A stretch of 64,000 nucleotides of DNA from an uncultured Dokdonia sp. GTDB lineage: Bacteria; Bacteroidota; Bacteroidia; Flavobacteriales; Flavobacteriaceae. The DNA is taken from positions 248,001 through 312,000 of the forward strand of contig NZ_CANLNH010000005.1 in the NCBI RefSeq assembly GCF_947492535.1. The letters are read 5' to 3'. The notes below the pieces were generated by a model. The model saw only the letters and a list, made by a program, of their open reading frames with translations, searched no databases and had not been told where the DNA came from. This document shows positions 59,454 through 62,509 of this stretch, piece by piece (within the stretch, counting starts at the first letter, position 1; every line of letters begins with the position of its first letter). The translations under genes were made by a program, and so were the position numbers.

Positions 59454-59864
59454 TTAATTCATACGATTTCTACGATCATCTTTTGTGGGAAAATACAAAT
59501 TAGAACTACTGTAGGATGATCCAAAGTTCTGAGCACCTGCATATACTTGTTGAATCGCATCTTCTACTTGTTGCTCTGTGAGTTCCTTTAATGGATGCAT
59601 AAAGACAGACCATAACACTCCGTCCGAAATGGCATACTTAATGTCTAGTGCGGTATGGAAGTTGGCTTCCAAACATGTTTTCATTTCACTAGGTGTTAGT
59701 TTATCGGTTTCTATGATAGGCGCCATAAATCGCATTCTATTATGTAGTTCATCTGTGAGGCAAATAACCTGTGTATCACCGAGTATAAATTGCCAATGCC
59801 CATTTCCTCCTTTGATATTTTCGATGAGTGAATGGAATATCGTGTCTAATTGCTTATTATTCAT
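59454..59864 (-). CDS. Conserved hypothetical protein, YbjN-like candidate
   Basis: A 136-residue protein without signal peptide. GHWQFILGDTQVICLTDELH is followed by NRMRFMAPI, a short acidic/aromatic pattern loosely resembling YbjN or secretion-chaperone-like folds, but motif support is weak. Its start codon overlaps the stop of the preceding esterase gene (TAATG), so translation may be coupled. Function is unknown. Confidence 0.6.
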   Translation of the reverse strand: MNNKQLDTIFHSLIENIKGGNGHWQFILGDTQVICLTDELHNRMRFMAPIIETDKLTPSEMKTCLEANFHTALDIKYAISDGVLWSVFMHPLKELTEQQVEDAIQQVYAGAQNFGSSYSSSNLYFPTKDDRRNRMN

Positions 59865-60643
59865 TAGTTAATTTTTCTTTTTTTACTGTAAACCCATGAA
59901 AAGAATGCTTCTTCTGCAAATGCATGATCCCAACTATTATGACCTATACCTGGATACATAGTAAGTTTAGGTACTGCTTTTTCTTCTAAAAGAGCTTGGT
60001 ACATGATTTTAGAATACGTAGGAGGAACTACCTTATCTTCATCGCCGTGAAAAATCCATACAGGTGTTTCTTTGGCCCATGTAGCAACGTTATCAGGATT
60101 TCCACCACCACATATAGGCGTTGCTGCTGCAAAGAGATTGGGTCTTCTAGATAAGAGTTCAAATGTGCCCATACCGCCCATAGAGAGTCCACCTAAATAA
60201 ATACGGCTCTTATCAATATACGCTTTCTCCAAATAGTGATCTATCAGTGCGATAACGGCACTCATTGCCCATGTAGGTTCACTTTGCTTTGGATATATAA
60301 AGACATTGGTTCCTTTTTCCTCATCACGCCTGTATTGAATTTGTGCCCAATAATCTTCTTTAGGACATTGCGGAAAAATCACAATCGCAGGATAATTAGG
60401 ATTCTGTTTTATAAATAATTCACTGCCGTGTACTAGTTGCGCCTGATTATCATTTCCACGCTCTCCTGAACCATGTAAAAAGATATGAAGCGGATAGGTT
60501 TTGGTGGCATCAAAATCTACAGGCATTAAAATACGATAGGGTAGGGTTTTGTCTTTATGTTCAAAAGCATCTTTATCAAAAGTTTGTTGTTGTCCCATCG
60601 CAGTATATCCTATACATAAAATAAAAAGTAAAATCCGTTTCAT
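59864..60643 (-). CDS. Secreted carboxylesterase / dienelactone-hydrolase-like enzyme
   Basis: A 259-residue alpha/beta hydrolase with signal peptide (to AMGQ). HIFLHGSGERGND provides the oxyanion loop, YLGGLSMGGMGTFEL the nucleophile Ser (about 155), WIFHGDEDKVVPP the Asp and GIGHNSWDHAF the His. This matches the PlaE/prolyl-oligopeptidase-like esterases that commonly accompany polysaccharide degradation, although no glycan genes adjoin it. Its stop overlaps the next gene start by 1 bp. Confidence 0.87.
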   Translation of the reverse strand: MKRILLFILCIGYTAMGQQQTFDKDAFEHKDKTLPYRILMPVDFDATKTYPLHIFLHGSGERGNDNQAQLVHGSELFIKQNPNYPAIVIFPQCPKEDYWAQIQYRRDEEKGTNVFIYPKQSEPTWAMSAVIALIDHYLEKAYIDKSRIYLGGLSMGGMGTFELLSRRPNLFAAATPICGGGNPDNVATWAKETPVWIFHGDEDKVVPPTYSKIMYQALLEEKAVPKLTMYPGIGHNSWDHAFAEEAFFSWVYSKKRKIN

Positions 60644-60704
60644 AAAGTAAGCGTTATATGGATGTAAGATAACTAAAACTGTTAGAATTTATAAAACGAA
60701 AAAC

Positions 60705-60833
60705 AGATTCCCGTCTTCGCGGGAATAGATGAACTTTCTATCCATCCGATTCTCATTCGTCAATGTATTGACTAGTTTGTGAAGTAGTGATGTGTTTTTG
60801 ATTTATGAGTGTACGCTTTCGCGAAAGCGTATA
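60705..60833. repeat. 129-bp direct repeat, copy 1
   Basis: Starts AGATTCCCGTCTTCGCGGGA and ends in the genomic palindrome with CGTATA. Copy 2 lies 263 bp away and differs at one base. The 650-bp gap 60644-61297 contains these repeats, a CCCTCCTAGGAAGGAGGG palindrome between them, and the first tRNA-like piece. Confidence 0.9.
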
Positions 60834-60967
60834 GAAAAATATTGTACTGATTATTTTGTATTTAGATATAGGTTTTGTTTTGAAACATACCCTTTAATCT
60901 CTTCTTATTAGGAAGATACTTGGAGCTTCCCTCCTAGGAAGGAGGGATTGAGGGAGGTGTGAAAAAG

Positions 60968-61096
60968 AGATTCCCGTCTTCGCGGGAATAGATGAACTTT
61001 CTATCCATCCGATTCTCATTCGTCAATGTATTGACTAGTTTGTGAAGTAGTGATGTGTTTTTGATTTATGAGTATACGCTTTCGCGAAAGCGTATA
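60968..61096. repeat. 129-bp direct repeat, copy 2
   Basis: Nearly identical to copy 1 (128 of 129 bases by eye), including the ATTCCCG / CGGGAAT hairpin and the palindrome at 61078-61091. Confidence 0.9.
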
Positions 61097-61140
61097 AAGA
61101 GTGATAAAATAATTTATGATAAAAATTTATAAAAGATTGT

Positions 61141-61169
61141 TTTGTAACTAATAAATAGTAGTATATTTG
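61141..61169 (+). promoter_or_regulatory. Promoter for the tRNA-Pro region
   Basis: TTTG at 61141-61144 and TATATTTG at 61162-61169, 17 bp apart, fit the Bacteroidota -33/-7 pattern. The -7 element lies about 20 bp before the first tRNA-Pro-like piece, so transcription starts just ahead of it. Confidence 0.75.
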
Positions 61170-61189
61170 CACCCGCAAAACACCAATTC

Positions 61190-61262
61190 GGGGTGTACCA
61201 TGCTAAAGCTTGGCAGGTCTAGCCCGGTGTTTATCGCGCCGCGTTTGGGACGCGGAGGTCGT
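61190..61262 (+). pseudogene. tRNA-Pro-like 5' portion, piece A, with D-arm insertion
   Basis: CGGGGTGTA, a 24-base insertion (hairpin CCATGC / GCTTGG), then GCCCGG, CGCGCC and the intact anticodon arm GCGTTTGGGACGC. After GGAGGTCG the T arm is replaced by TCACGC / GCGTGA. Without a T arm and 3' acceptor it is not a working tRNA. Confidence 0.7.
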
Positions 61263-61548
61263 CACGCTTGAGGCGTGACCACCCAGATAACAACAATATG
61301 TTCGTATATATTTTATATAGCGAGAAACGTTCAAAATATTATGTAGGTCAAACTGCAGATATTGACAAAAGATTGAAAAGACATAACCTTGGTTTAGTAC
61401 CGTCTACAAAAGGCGGAGCACCTTGGAAATTAGTTTTGCAAATTGAAGTTTTATCTAGATCTGAAGCCATGGTTTTAGAAAAAAAGATAAAGAAAAGAGG
61501 AGCAAAGCGATATATAGATAACCAATTCGGGGTGTAGCGTAGCCCGGT
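61232..61548 (+). repeat. 317-bp tandem repeat unit 1 (tRNA part plus GIY-YIG gene)
   Basis: A direct repeat with period 317; the second unit is 61549-61865, followed by the intact tRNA. Identity is near complete, with one difference seen in the anticodon stem (GCGGAGG versus GCAGAGG). Confidence 0.9.
61298..61537 (+). CDS. GIY-YIG endonuclease-domain protein, copy 1
   Basis: A 79-residue single-domain nuclease of the UPF0213/YhbQ type. It has VYILYSEKRSKYYVGQTADI (the GIY-YIG equivalent, YIL...YVG), Arg in DKRLKRHN, and catalytic Glu in SRSEAMVLEKKIKKRGAKR. The start at 61298 (MFVYIL) is chosen; the longer frame from GTG 61268 lies in repeat sequence. The last residues NQFGV and the stop codon are encoded by the 5' end of the following tRNA-Pro-like piece. 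Identical in protein sequence to copy 2. Confidence 0.8.
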   Translation: MFVYILYSEKRSKYYVGQTADIDKRLKRHNLGLVPSTKGGAPWKLVLQIEVLSRSEAMVLEKKIKKRGAKRYIDNQFGV

Positions 61549-61580
61549 TATCGCGCCGCGTTTGGGACGCAGAGGTCGTC
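61528..61580 (+). pseudogene. tRNA-Pro-like portion, piece B (broken)
   Basis: CGGGGTG...GCGTTTGGGACGC, then AGAGGTCG and TCACGC instead of the T arm. One base of the anticodon stem differs (A for G). Not a working tRNA. Confidence 0.75.
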
Positions 61581-61614
61581 ACGCTTGAGGCGTGACCACC
61601 CAGATAACAACAAT

Positions 61615-61854
61615 ATGTTCGTATATATTTTATATAGCGAGAAACGTTCAAAATATTATGTAGGTCAAACTGCAGATATTGACAAAAGATTGAAAAGACA
61701 TAACCTTGGTTTAGTACCGTCTACAAAAGGCGGAGCACCTTGGAAATTAGTTTTGCAAATTGAAGTTTTATCTAGATCTGAAGCCATGGTTTTAGAAAAA
61801 AAGATAAAGAAAAGAGGAGCAAAGCGATATATAGATAACCAATTCGGGGTGTAG
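61615..61854 (+). CDS. GIY-YIG endonuclease-domain protein, copy 2
   Basis: The same 79-residue protein as copy 1, 317 bp downstream. Its stop codon (61852-61854) lies within the intact tRNA-Pro at 61845, so gene and tRNA overlap by 10 bases. Domain features are as for copy 1. The unit looks like a tRNA-Pro-targeted mobile or self-duplicating cassette, but no mobilising activity has been shown for this family. Confidence 0.8.
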   Translation: MFVYILYSEKRSKYYVGQTADIDKRLKRHNLGLVPSTKGGAPWKLVLQIEVLSRSEAMVLEKKIKKRGAKRYIDNQFGV

Positions 61855-61919
61855 CGTAGCCCGGTTATCGCGCCGCGTTTGGGACGCGGAGGTCGCAGGT
61901 TCGAATCCTGCCACCCCGA
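61845..61919 (+). tRNA. tRNA-Pro (TGG)
   Basis: A complete cloverleaf: acceptor stem CGGGGTG / CACCCCG, anticodon stem CCGCG / CGCGG with loop TTTGGGA (anticodon TGG at 61880-61882), T stem GCAGG / CCTGC with loop TTCGAAT, discriminator A at 61919. CCA is not encoded. It is the only intact copy among the three tRNA-Pro-like pieces here. The stop codon of the GIY-YIG copy 2 lies in its 5' end. Confidence 0.95.
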
Positions 61920-61925
61920 CAAAAT

Positions 61926-62000
61926 GGAGGTCGTCACGCCTGAAGCGTGATCACCCCGACAAAATGGAGGTCGTCACGCCTGAAGCATGATCACTCCCGA
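61926..62000 (+). repeat. Two T-arm-like remnants after tRNA-Pro
   Basis: Two copies of GGAGGTCGTCACGCCTGAAG, GYRTGATCAC, CCCGAC in tandem, the second somewhat diverged. The same GGTCGTCACGC..GCGTGA end is in pieces A and B, so these are likely relics of earlier units. Confidence 0.7.
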
Positions 62001-62004
62001 CCAA

Positions 62005-62040
62005 AAAAAGCCTAAAATCATATTGATTTTAGGCTTTTAA
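62005..62040. terminator. Terminator after tRNA-Pro region
   Basis: Stem AAAAGCCTAAAATCA / TGATTTTAGGCTTTT, near-perfect, serving both the tRNA and the convergent gene. Confidence 0.85.
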
Positions 62041-62062
62041 CTTTTTTAGTAGGTTGTCTATT

Positions 62063-62509
62063 TTATTCTACTCTCGTATAACTTTCTCCATGAAAACGTT
62101 TGCCATCATCATCCAATTGAATTTGCTGATACGCTTTCTTTTCCATAATCAATTCAAATCGGAATACTTGTGTGGTATCTACCACTTTCATCATCGGACC
62201 CGATGCATATTCTAAACGTTCTTCGAGCATTCCATTTTTTATAGTATAGGTTCCATATCCAAACCACTCATTAGTATCTGAAGGATCATTGCGTGTCCAC
62301 ATCACTTTTCCTTTACTATACATTTTGATTTGTCTGTATCCATTTTCATTTTCCATGATTTCAGATACATTACCATCTTCATACATTTGTTGGTTTTGGA
62401 GTTCCCAAACTCCTTCTAAAGAGATTTTTTCATCTATTGTAATTCTTCCATCACCCGAGACGAGTGTAGCAACCATCAAGTAACAACTAAACATTAATAA
62501 GGCTTTCAT
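62063..62509 (-). CDS. Small secreted lipocalin-like protein
   Basis: A 148-residue protein with a signal peptide (about residues 1-18). LEGVWELQNQQMYEDGN and YGTYTIKNGMLEERLEYASG resemble the repeats in the protein at 44606, so it is a one-domain member of the same secreted family. Function is unknown. A terminator lies immediately downstream. Confidence 0.72.
   Translation of the reverse strand: MKALLMFSCYLMVATLVSGDGRITIDEKISLEGVWELQNQQMYEDGNVSEIMENENGYRQIKMYSKGKVMWTRNDPSDTNEWFGYGTYTIKNGMLEERLEYASGPMMKVVDTTQVFRFELIMEKKAYQQIQLDDDGKRFHGESYTRVE

Follow-up and report, generated by a model that had tools for sequence, protein, structure and literature searches.

Short GIY-YIG nuclease genes lodged in tRNA genes of Bacteroidota are probably free-standing homing-type elements

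How two identical nuclease genes came to lie between pieces of a tRNA gene, and whether such a unit moves, is the question raised by a locus in an uncultured Dokdonia sp. The locus was found in a 64-kb window, that is, the whole stretch of 64,000 nucleotides that was analysed, where two identical GIY-YIG nuclease genes of 79 codons lie in 317-bp units with tRNA-Pro pieces on either side. The initial annotation of this DNA had taken the arrangement for an element that targets tRNA-Pro, travels or duplicates with it and regenerates a full tRNA at one end. In this study, we conclude that the unit is probably a free-standing homing-type element that splits its target gene and supplies a replacement end, as the mobile ORFs (mORFs) of fungal mitochondria do, with tandem amplification like that of the phage nuclease SegB. 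The features of the locus, all on the + strand, are as follows.

61138 to 61169, + strand: promoter-like TTG...TATATTTG upstream of the first broken tRNA (from the sequence)
61189 to 61287, + strand: first broken tRNA-Pro, with an insert after nt ~9 and a hairpin for the T arm (repeats D1, D4 and D6; sequence)
61262 to 61278, + strand: hairpin TCACGCTTGAGGCGTGA instead of the T arm (repeat and palindrome searches)
61298 to 61537, + strand: GIY-YIG nuclease gene copy 1, 79 codons plus stop (ORF, PF01541)
61528 to 61604, + strand: second broken tRNA-Pro, with the same hairpin at 61579 to 61595 for the T arm (Rfam RF00005, 25.2 bits, below the tRNA cut-off of 29)
61615 to 61854, + strand: GIY-YIG nuclease gene copy 2, the same as copy 1, with TAG at tRNA nt 8-10 as its stop
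61845 to 61920, + strand: intact tRNA-Pro(TGG) (ARAGORN; Rfam 67.8 bits)
61912 to 61991, + strand: two 40-bp relics of the tRNA 3' part with a related palindrome, hairpin TCACGCCTGAAGCGTGA (repeat family D3)
62006 to 62038, + strand: terminator-like inverted repeat (I10), with a matching hairpin directly after the tRNA at an empty site in the congener G011

The tRNA-Pro sequence is present in three copies, of which the last is complete and is the sole tRNA recognized by ARAGORN across the window; the T arm of the second piece was unmatched in Rfam. The direct repeat 61231-61530/61548-61847 has a spacing of 317, is 300 nt long and is 100% identical, and it carries two ORFs with ATG at 61298 and 61615 and stops at 61537 and 61854. 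Both ORFs end in ...DNQFGV-stop inside the 5' end of the next tRNA-Pro copy, so that the last 10 nt of copy 1 are the 5' end of the second broken tRNA-Pro, and tRNA bases 1-10 (C-GGG-GTG-TAG) complete the F codon of the upstream ORF with one base and encode its G, V and stop. The tandem genes, their NQFGV ends within the tRNA, the single intact tRNA-Pro and the broken T arms with two T-arm-like relics, all described on first reading, are therefore present in the sequence. The units are not alike throughout, with G/A at 61254/61571 and the extra insert in the first broken tRNA-Pro only. With up to three mismatches allowed, the palindrome pattern has eight matches (four sites on both strands), all within 61262-61990, against 0.43 expected, and as many were found in 0 of 100 shuffles. 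The promoter-like sequence, which we take to be of the Bacteroidota -33/-7 type, recurs almost unchanged immediately before the unbroken tRNA-Pro of G011, where the site is empty.

Both nuclease copies exceed the PF01541 cut-off of 22.6 bits (copy 1, 50.9 bits, E 1.9e-13). Residues Y3, Y14, R24 and E60 are invariant in alignment A1, numbered on its first row, which has no Met, and the matching Y5, Y16, R26 and E62 are invariant in all 25 rows of alignment A2; presumably these two Tyr, the Arg and the Glu are the catalytic residues, with roles as in I-TevI and UvrC. The proteins at the Arg and Leu loci of the same genome are 40% and 33% identical to the window protein. By sequence, the nearest solved structures are UPF0213-type GIY-YIG proteins (BH0048, 1zg2, E 7.4e-9; EF2693, 1ywl, E 2.6e-8), which like the window nuclease consist of one small domain and for which we know of no tRNA link. 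Matches to the group I intron endonucleases TIGR01453 (17-24.5 bits against a cut-off of 56, mostly over the first ~38 residues) and to the I-TevI domain 1mk0 (E 0.025) are weak, and, unlike group I intron endonucleases, the window nuclease has no further domain. A group I intron with its endonuclease was rejected, as the Rfam search of 60600-62300 at E 0.1 reported no such intron. For a homing enzyme, one domain of ~80 aa that lacks a DNA-binding part is small, a point against the homing reading. In its favour, dN/dS is 0.05-0.15 among full-length Leu-type genes from three species, which shows purifying selection at one locus, that of the Leu type.

Of ten GIY-YIG matches in the window's own genome, four precede an intact same-strand tRNA: the two window genes, L007 directly before tRNA-Arg(TCG) and L008 directly before tRNA-Leu(CAA). 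Each of the latter two is preceded by a 5' fragment of its own tRNA whose D loop holds a hairpin. A first survey, with a profile (A1) of three own-genome proteins against 119 genomes of the host family, one per genus, gave a match in 94 of the 119; the 116 loci taken up are a selection of the matches (7 from the own genome, 3 of these being the query genes, 29 fetched by search and 80 chosen down the ranking). A tRNA was called adjacent if it started at -40 to +150 of the ORF stop or ended at -10 to +200 before the domain. An intact tRNA adjoined the nuclease gene on the same strand in 59 of these loci and on the opposite strand in none, in favour of the homing reading. A second survey used a profile (A3) of the tRNA-adjacent proteins against named genomes, with 80 of 291 relatives taken plus one viral-contig locus; among the matches listed, 70 of the 81 loci had an intact tRNA on the same strand and 0 on the other. 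The surveys share two loci, and in both together opposite-strand adjacency was found in 0 of 197 loci, while chance adjacency is below 1% per strand by a rough estimate (~50 tRNAs in ~3.5 Mb). A stricter window left 50 of 116 loci in the first survey and, among the matches listed, 69 of 81 in the second.

Adjacency in the first survey dropped with distance from the query proteins, from 31 of 38 loci at A1 scores of at least 80 bits to 8 of 15 at 60-80, 19 of 45 at 45-60 and 1 of 18 below 45, which was counted for the homing reading. Against it stand the 57 of 116 loci with no tRNA in range, several of which belong to a subfamily among dispersed repeats. This second GIY-YIG subfamily of ~95-120 aa (L150, L169, L154, L157, L161, L143, L165, L147 and L156) has no tRNA in range; its genes are found in regions of dispersed REP-like repeats and are flanked by repeats on either side. 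Among the matches listed in the second survey, hosts with an adjacent tRNA comprise many Bacteroidota and metagenome-assembled (MAG) contigs of Patescibacteria (named Uhrbacteria, Roizmanbacteria, Peregrinibacteria and Parcubacteria), Planctomycetota and Neomarinimicrobiota, and the Nitrospirae contig L223 has no adjacent tRNA. The non-Bacteroidota MAG contigs may be misbinned, a point against the homing reading. Only 1 of 2.9 million viral contigs matched the A3 profile, at a contig edge, and tblastn against 50,697 phage records gave 3 matches for the Arg type (43-45% identity) and 0 for the window protein; this rarity in virus collections was counted for the homing reading. A phage origin was rejected or put low.

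Two mirror arrangements recur. Form A, found at the window locus, has the order 5' stub, ORF, intact tRNA; form B has an intact tRNA with its terminator, the ORF, a tRNA-like 3' stub in which one arm is swapped for a hairpin (e.g., L095, L113, L128 and L135), and a second copy of the terminator. Both forms were found with Arg(TCG), Leu(CAA), Pro(TGG), Asn and Met tRNAs. The nuclease stop TAG coincides with tRNA nt 8-10 (offset -9) in 27 of 84 class-A loci, or 25 without duplicates, at Pro, Arg, Ala, Met, Phe and Asn tRNAs, and the ORF stop falls at offset -22 in another 17 of the 84. In a stub test whose entries take in some neighbouring non-target tRNAs, 76 of 89 class-A upstream stubs exceeded the 95th percentile of other-isotype stubs (n=445), in support of the homing reading; in class B, 22 of 50 stub entries scored at least 40 with no control, so the support is less good than in class A, a point against the homing reading. 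The acceptor stems of stub and intact tRNA are mostly alike, which weighs against the homing reading, since the expected mark of a foreign replacement end is then seen at one tRNA locus only, the Leu locus of G011.

Hairpins are a regular part of the stubs. Among class-A stubs, 51 of 84 have a perfect stem of at least 7 bp, compared with 29 of 244 control windows; for class B the figures are 22 of 35 stubs and 14 of 131 windows. Members of the CTGCC..GGCAG palindrome family occur in 51 of the 84 class-A stubs, compared with 1 of the 244 windows, which were taken from farther upstream; in class B, 9 of the 35 stubs and 0 of the 131 windows have one. This palindrome stands at tRNA nt 21-22 in 26 of 44 placeable class-A stubs and at nt 20 in the Uhrbacteria contig L179; palindromes of the CCTGCCTGCCGGCAGGCAGG type would share roughly one place in the D loop of stubs from different phyla, and they are also dispersed in some genomes. 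The own genome has 50 sites (at most two mismatches) against 0 for the reversed pattern, and many of the 15 sites viewed lie inside a larger repeat with TTTCGCGAAA. With one mismatch allowed, the palindrome is found in only 33 of 119 family genomes, and some palindrome-rich genomes have no high-scoring nuclease match (G117, with 20 copies). It occurs in 15 of 25 genomes with a tRNA-type gene of at least ~75 bits and in 18 of 94 others (Fisher p 2e-4), the list of 25 having been taken by eye, with stub copies included and with G087 (L069) and three epimerase-type genomes placed in the group of 94; the genome-level link between palindrome and nuclease is moderate. That the palindrome is a mere genome-specific repeat was partly rejected on its enrichment in stubs over controls and its recurrence at tRNA nt 21-22. 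The hairpin may prevent tRNA-like folding or processing of the stub, may hinder recombination that removes the gene, or may protect from the nuclease. In a flank-repeat test, 39 of 111 loci lay beyond the 99th percentile of mismatched pairs, a control that includes homologous contexts (5 of the 116 loci were dropped for short flanks); some of the high scores come from REP-like repeats with no tRNA.

Targets are not confined to tRNA genes. In four genera (L070, L072, L073 and L074), a GIY-YIG gene lies in an epimerase-type gene, with a stub before and an intact gene after it. The stub (e.g., MGTANISEYSYLVTGGAGF-NP-stop) has its stop codon shortly before the nuclease start, and the break is at the GGAGF/IG Rossmann motif in all four. 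The downstream gene is intact in four of four, with a start unlike the stub and with TGGAGFIG, which favours the homing reading, and Pfam Epimerase was found in both of the two (of four) downstream genes scanned. At the four epimerase junctions this palindrome was not seen. The nuclease gene of L073 is itself broken, and at L131, where a shortened nuclease gene precedes an epimerase-type gene, no stub was found. At L069, a GIY-YIG gene breaks a gene with the 5' part ...LRKSAVSVPSN; the 3' remainder (by eye) has no new start, and no intact target copy was seen alongside.

The initial annotation had proposed a search for empty sites and a comparison of copy number in relatives. Within a genus set of 18 genomes, the own genome (G000) included, empty sites were found at three loci, so the unit is not fixed with identical structure in all relatives. 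The Leu locus was scored in 16 of the 18 genomes, with 12 empty and 4 occupied (G000, G011, G015 and G001); in the 12 empty sites, 8 of them read at sequence level, flank and tRNA adjoin with no space for the gene. The Arg locus was empty in 8 and occupied in 1 (G000) of the 9 of 18 genomes scored. Of three genomes scored at the Pro locus, G011 is empty, with promoter, leader, tRNA and terminator unbroken in the same gene neighbourhood, and G015 and the window are occupied; in G015, the unit lies at one contig end and tRNA-Pro at another. The Pro-type nuclease gene of G015 (L016, G015:C7) has an in-frame stop after 13 codons, which counts against the homing reading. At the Leu locus, G001 is occupied with 82% identity over the whole locus, while G007 and G014 are empty with flank identities of 87% and 85%; occupancy does not track similarity, which was counted for the homing reading. 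Occupied and empty alleles at one fixed site in relatives, a pattern expected of a homing endonuclease element, were thus found at the Leu, Arg and Pro loci.

The Leu locus of G011 (L264) bears on the origin of the replacement end. Its stub has the acceptor GCCGAAA as in the genus, and the intact tRNA-Leu(CAA) has GCCTTGG..CCAAGGT and agrees with that of G232, from another genus, at 79 of 82 positions and with that of the window genome at 72 of 83; the nuclease gene is otherwise orthologous in place. Judged by these comparisons, the locus combines a native stub with a foreign-like tRNA, a single such case. Copy number also varies: 22 of 116 first-survey loci hold two to four copies of at least 40 bits, and 22 of the 27 neighbouring pairs in these arrays reach at least 95% identity, in favour of the homing reading. 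More than one profile hit was found in 28 of the 116 loci, some of the hits being fragments.

A protein tree was built from 116 of 119 rows, with the tRNA-encoded C-terminus cut off, over 62 columns. The target amino acid requires 26 changes on this tree against 65.8 in shuffles (0/200), and all 18 Leu rows, of forms A and B, fall on one side of one branch (SH-aLRT 94), in a clade that spans several Bacteroidota orders. On the 63 named rows, the target requires 15 changes (shuffled 29.8, least 7), compared with 20 for host order on 45 named rows (shuffled 24.9, least 6) and 20 for host family on 37 (shuffled 22.1, least 9), a loose comparison because the row sets differ (45 for order, 63 for target). 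The tRNA target thus seems to account for protein relationships better than host order or host family does. Several results weigh against the homing reading here: the Ala rows are unclustered (5 changes in 5 rows), the A/B form clusters too (12 changes, shuffled 29.6), and 56 of the 63 named rows are Bacteroidota, with phylum at 5 changes (shuffled 7.0, least 5). As the phylum label is at its least number of changes, cross-phylum transfer is unsupported and the claim of host-independent relationships is weakened. Few branches are strongly supported (8 starred).

Considering these results, we propose that the ~300-bp unit would be a minimal free-standing homing-type element with a bare GIY-YIG domain of ~80 aa. 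The nuclease would cut one kind of gene, mostly one tRNA isoacceptor gene, at a conserved place in an element-free copy, and repair from an occupied copy would insert the nuclease gene with a replacement target end. This would leave the nuclease gene flanked by a stub of the target and, on its other side, by one intact target. In form A, the nuclease gene lies between the putative tRNA promoter and the intact tRNA and is thus probably cotranscribed in one transcript, and the stub hairpin probably keeps the stub from tRNA function or from recombination with the intact copy. Because repeats flank the gene, cutting or slippage between stub and intact tRNA would yield tandem arrays or clean loss. 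The suggestion that the element travels or duplicates with the tRNA and leaves a full tRNA at one end gains support from the empty sites and copy-number variation. The unit is found with tRNA-Pro in the window and in G015, but it is not confined to that tRNA and occurs with many isoacceptors, in two mirror forms and in a protein gene.

Two known systems come close. In fungal mitochondria, mORFs have replaced gene 3' ends in atp6 of Allomyces macrogynus and in atp6, atp9, cox2 and nad3 of Glomus, according to the available part of that report (PMC3630166). As here, the mORFs described in it are free-standing endonuclease ORFs inside a gene (GIY-YIG in Glomus atp9), with a replacement end and a stub of the native end, and the hybrid gene is expressed (PMC3630166). 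They differ in concerning mitochondrial protein genes and 3' ends, whereas the present units concern mainly bacterial tRNA genes with mostly 5' stubs and have an ~80-aa nuclease and stub hairpins, as far as that part of the report allows comparison (PMC3630166). Of the marks of an mORF, a stub and an intact target were seen, a foreign-like new tRNA was seen at one locus, and epimerase starts differ from stubs in 4 of 4. SegB of T-even phages, in the available part of its description, is a GIY-YIG nuclease that cuts tRNA genes and multiplies nuclease and tRNA, its repeats involving microhomology of the tRNA 5' end with the segB 3' end (PMC13096335). It shares with our units a free-standing GIY-YIG nuclease beside tRNA genes and tandem nuclease and tRNA repeats, and it differs in being phage-borne within tRNA arrays, while our units have a fixed tRNA overlap; that part of the text describes no tRNA stub, hairpin or isoacceptor-specific clade (PMC13096335).

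The likeness to SegB raises the alternative of local tandem duplication, in which occasional tRNA cutting and repair, as with SegB of phage T6, multiply or delete the unit in place and the unit rarely or never moves. The arrays of near-identical copies and the mostly equal acceptor stems of stub and tRNA agree with it, and the available account of SegB amplification through tRNA 5'/segB 3' microhomology offers a precedent (PMC13096335). We nevertheless consider it unlikely, given the patchy occupied and empty sites at three loci in one genus, the Leu-type clade across several Bacteroidota orders and the single profile hit at 88 of 116 loci. Still less probable is that the host has domesticated the nuclease to process, regulate or guard the tRNA with which the gene overlaps: strict same-strand linkage, purifying selection and the stop codon at tRNA nt 8-10 in 27 of 84 class-A loci would suit such a role, but the gene is absent from most scored genus genomes at the Leu and Arg loci, forms A and B place it on opposite sides of the tRNA, and relatives occur in epimerase genes.

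The 3' ends of tRNA genes are common integrase sites, and the nuclease gene could be the passenger of tRNA-targeting integrases at an insertion hotspot. At one own-genome locus (L012, G000:C3:272340-275540), a GIY gene does lie between two tRNA-Met 3' halves, one with the hairpin TCCGCCAGAGGCGGA, near a reading frame that is integrase-like by eye. We regard this explanation as highly improbable, as units of ~300 bp are too small for an integrase, the gene has the orientation of the tRNA in every adjacent case with its end often at fixed tRNA bases, and form A leaves a 5' stub. A tRNA-targeting integrative element was likewise rejected, the unit ORFs being GIY-YIG genes and the pieces 5' parts of tRNA. 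An assembly or chance artefact, suggested by the 73-contig draft of the window genome and by contigs ending at or near such loci in G015, G035, G066, G079 and G137, deserves almost no credence when the window units differ from each other, the layout recurs in many genera and G160 has a three-unit array in a genome given as one contig, so that arrays as such are real. In this 73-contig draft, the precise number of units in the window is provisional.

Returning to the homing-type element, a wider and more speculative reading, whose parts are taken jointly and which is more doubtful than not, is that the units represent a large class of minimal (~300 bp), isoacceptor-specialised gene-splitting elements in bacterial chromosomes, that they borrow the tRNA promoter and even bases 8-10 as a stop codon, and that they act with the ~20-bp palindrome CCTGCCTGCCGGCAGGCAGG and its relatives, the nuclease spreading or recognising it as a GIY-YIG counterpart of REP/RAYT. 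Free-standing GIY-YIG nucleases near tRNAs and end-replacing mobile ORFs are already known separately. To our knowledge, the end-replacement route of homing is known only from fungal mitochondria. Among the papers listed in searches of the open-licence literature, we found no bacterial chromosomal tRNA-gene elements of this type, nor isoacceptor-specific clades, a tRNA-supplied stop codon or hairpin stubs. Their essential role and high conservation make tRNA genes an ideal yet dangerous place for a selfish gene, and the units show a way of living in them, with the gene broken and one whole copy kept. The results suggest that selfish genes of a little-noticed kind can enter essential genes while the host survives. 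Such units would account for short orphan nuclease genes and tRNA fragments missed by annotation, and they would form a large natural set of ~80-aa nucleases with relationships that each follow one tRNA gene, which makes them candidate compact cutters. End-replacement homing would also become testable in culturable bacteria.

Two further observations were made in the own genome. At L004 (G000:C12:97435-100478), ten tRNA genes, including a divergent tRNA-Pro(TGG), lie within 2 kb, possibly in a prophage. In the window, a 136-bp direct repeat (60698-60833/60961-61096, 99% identical) lies between the gene at 59864-60643 and the tRNA unit; it holds the palindrome TACGCTTTCGCGAAAGCGTA, and parts of it recur across the genus.
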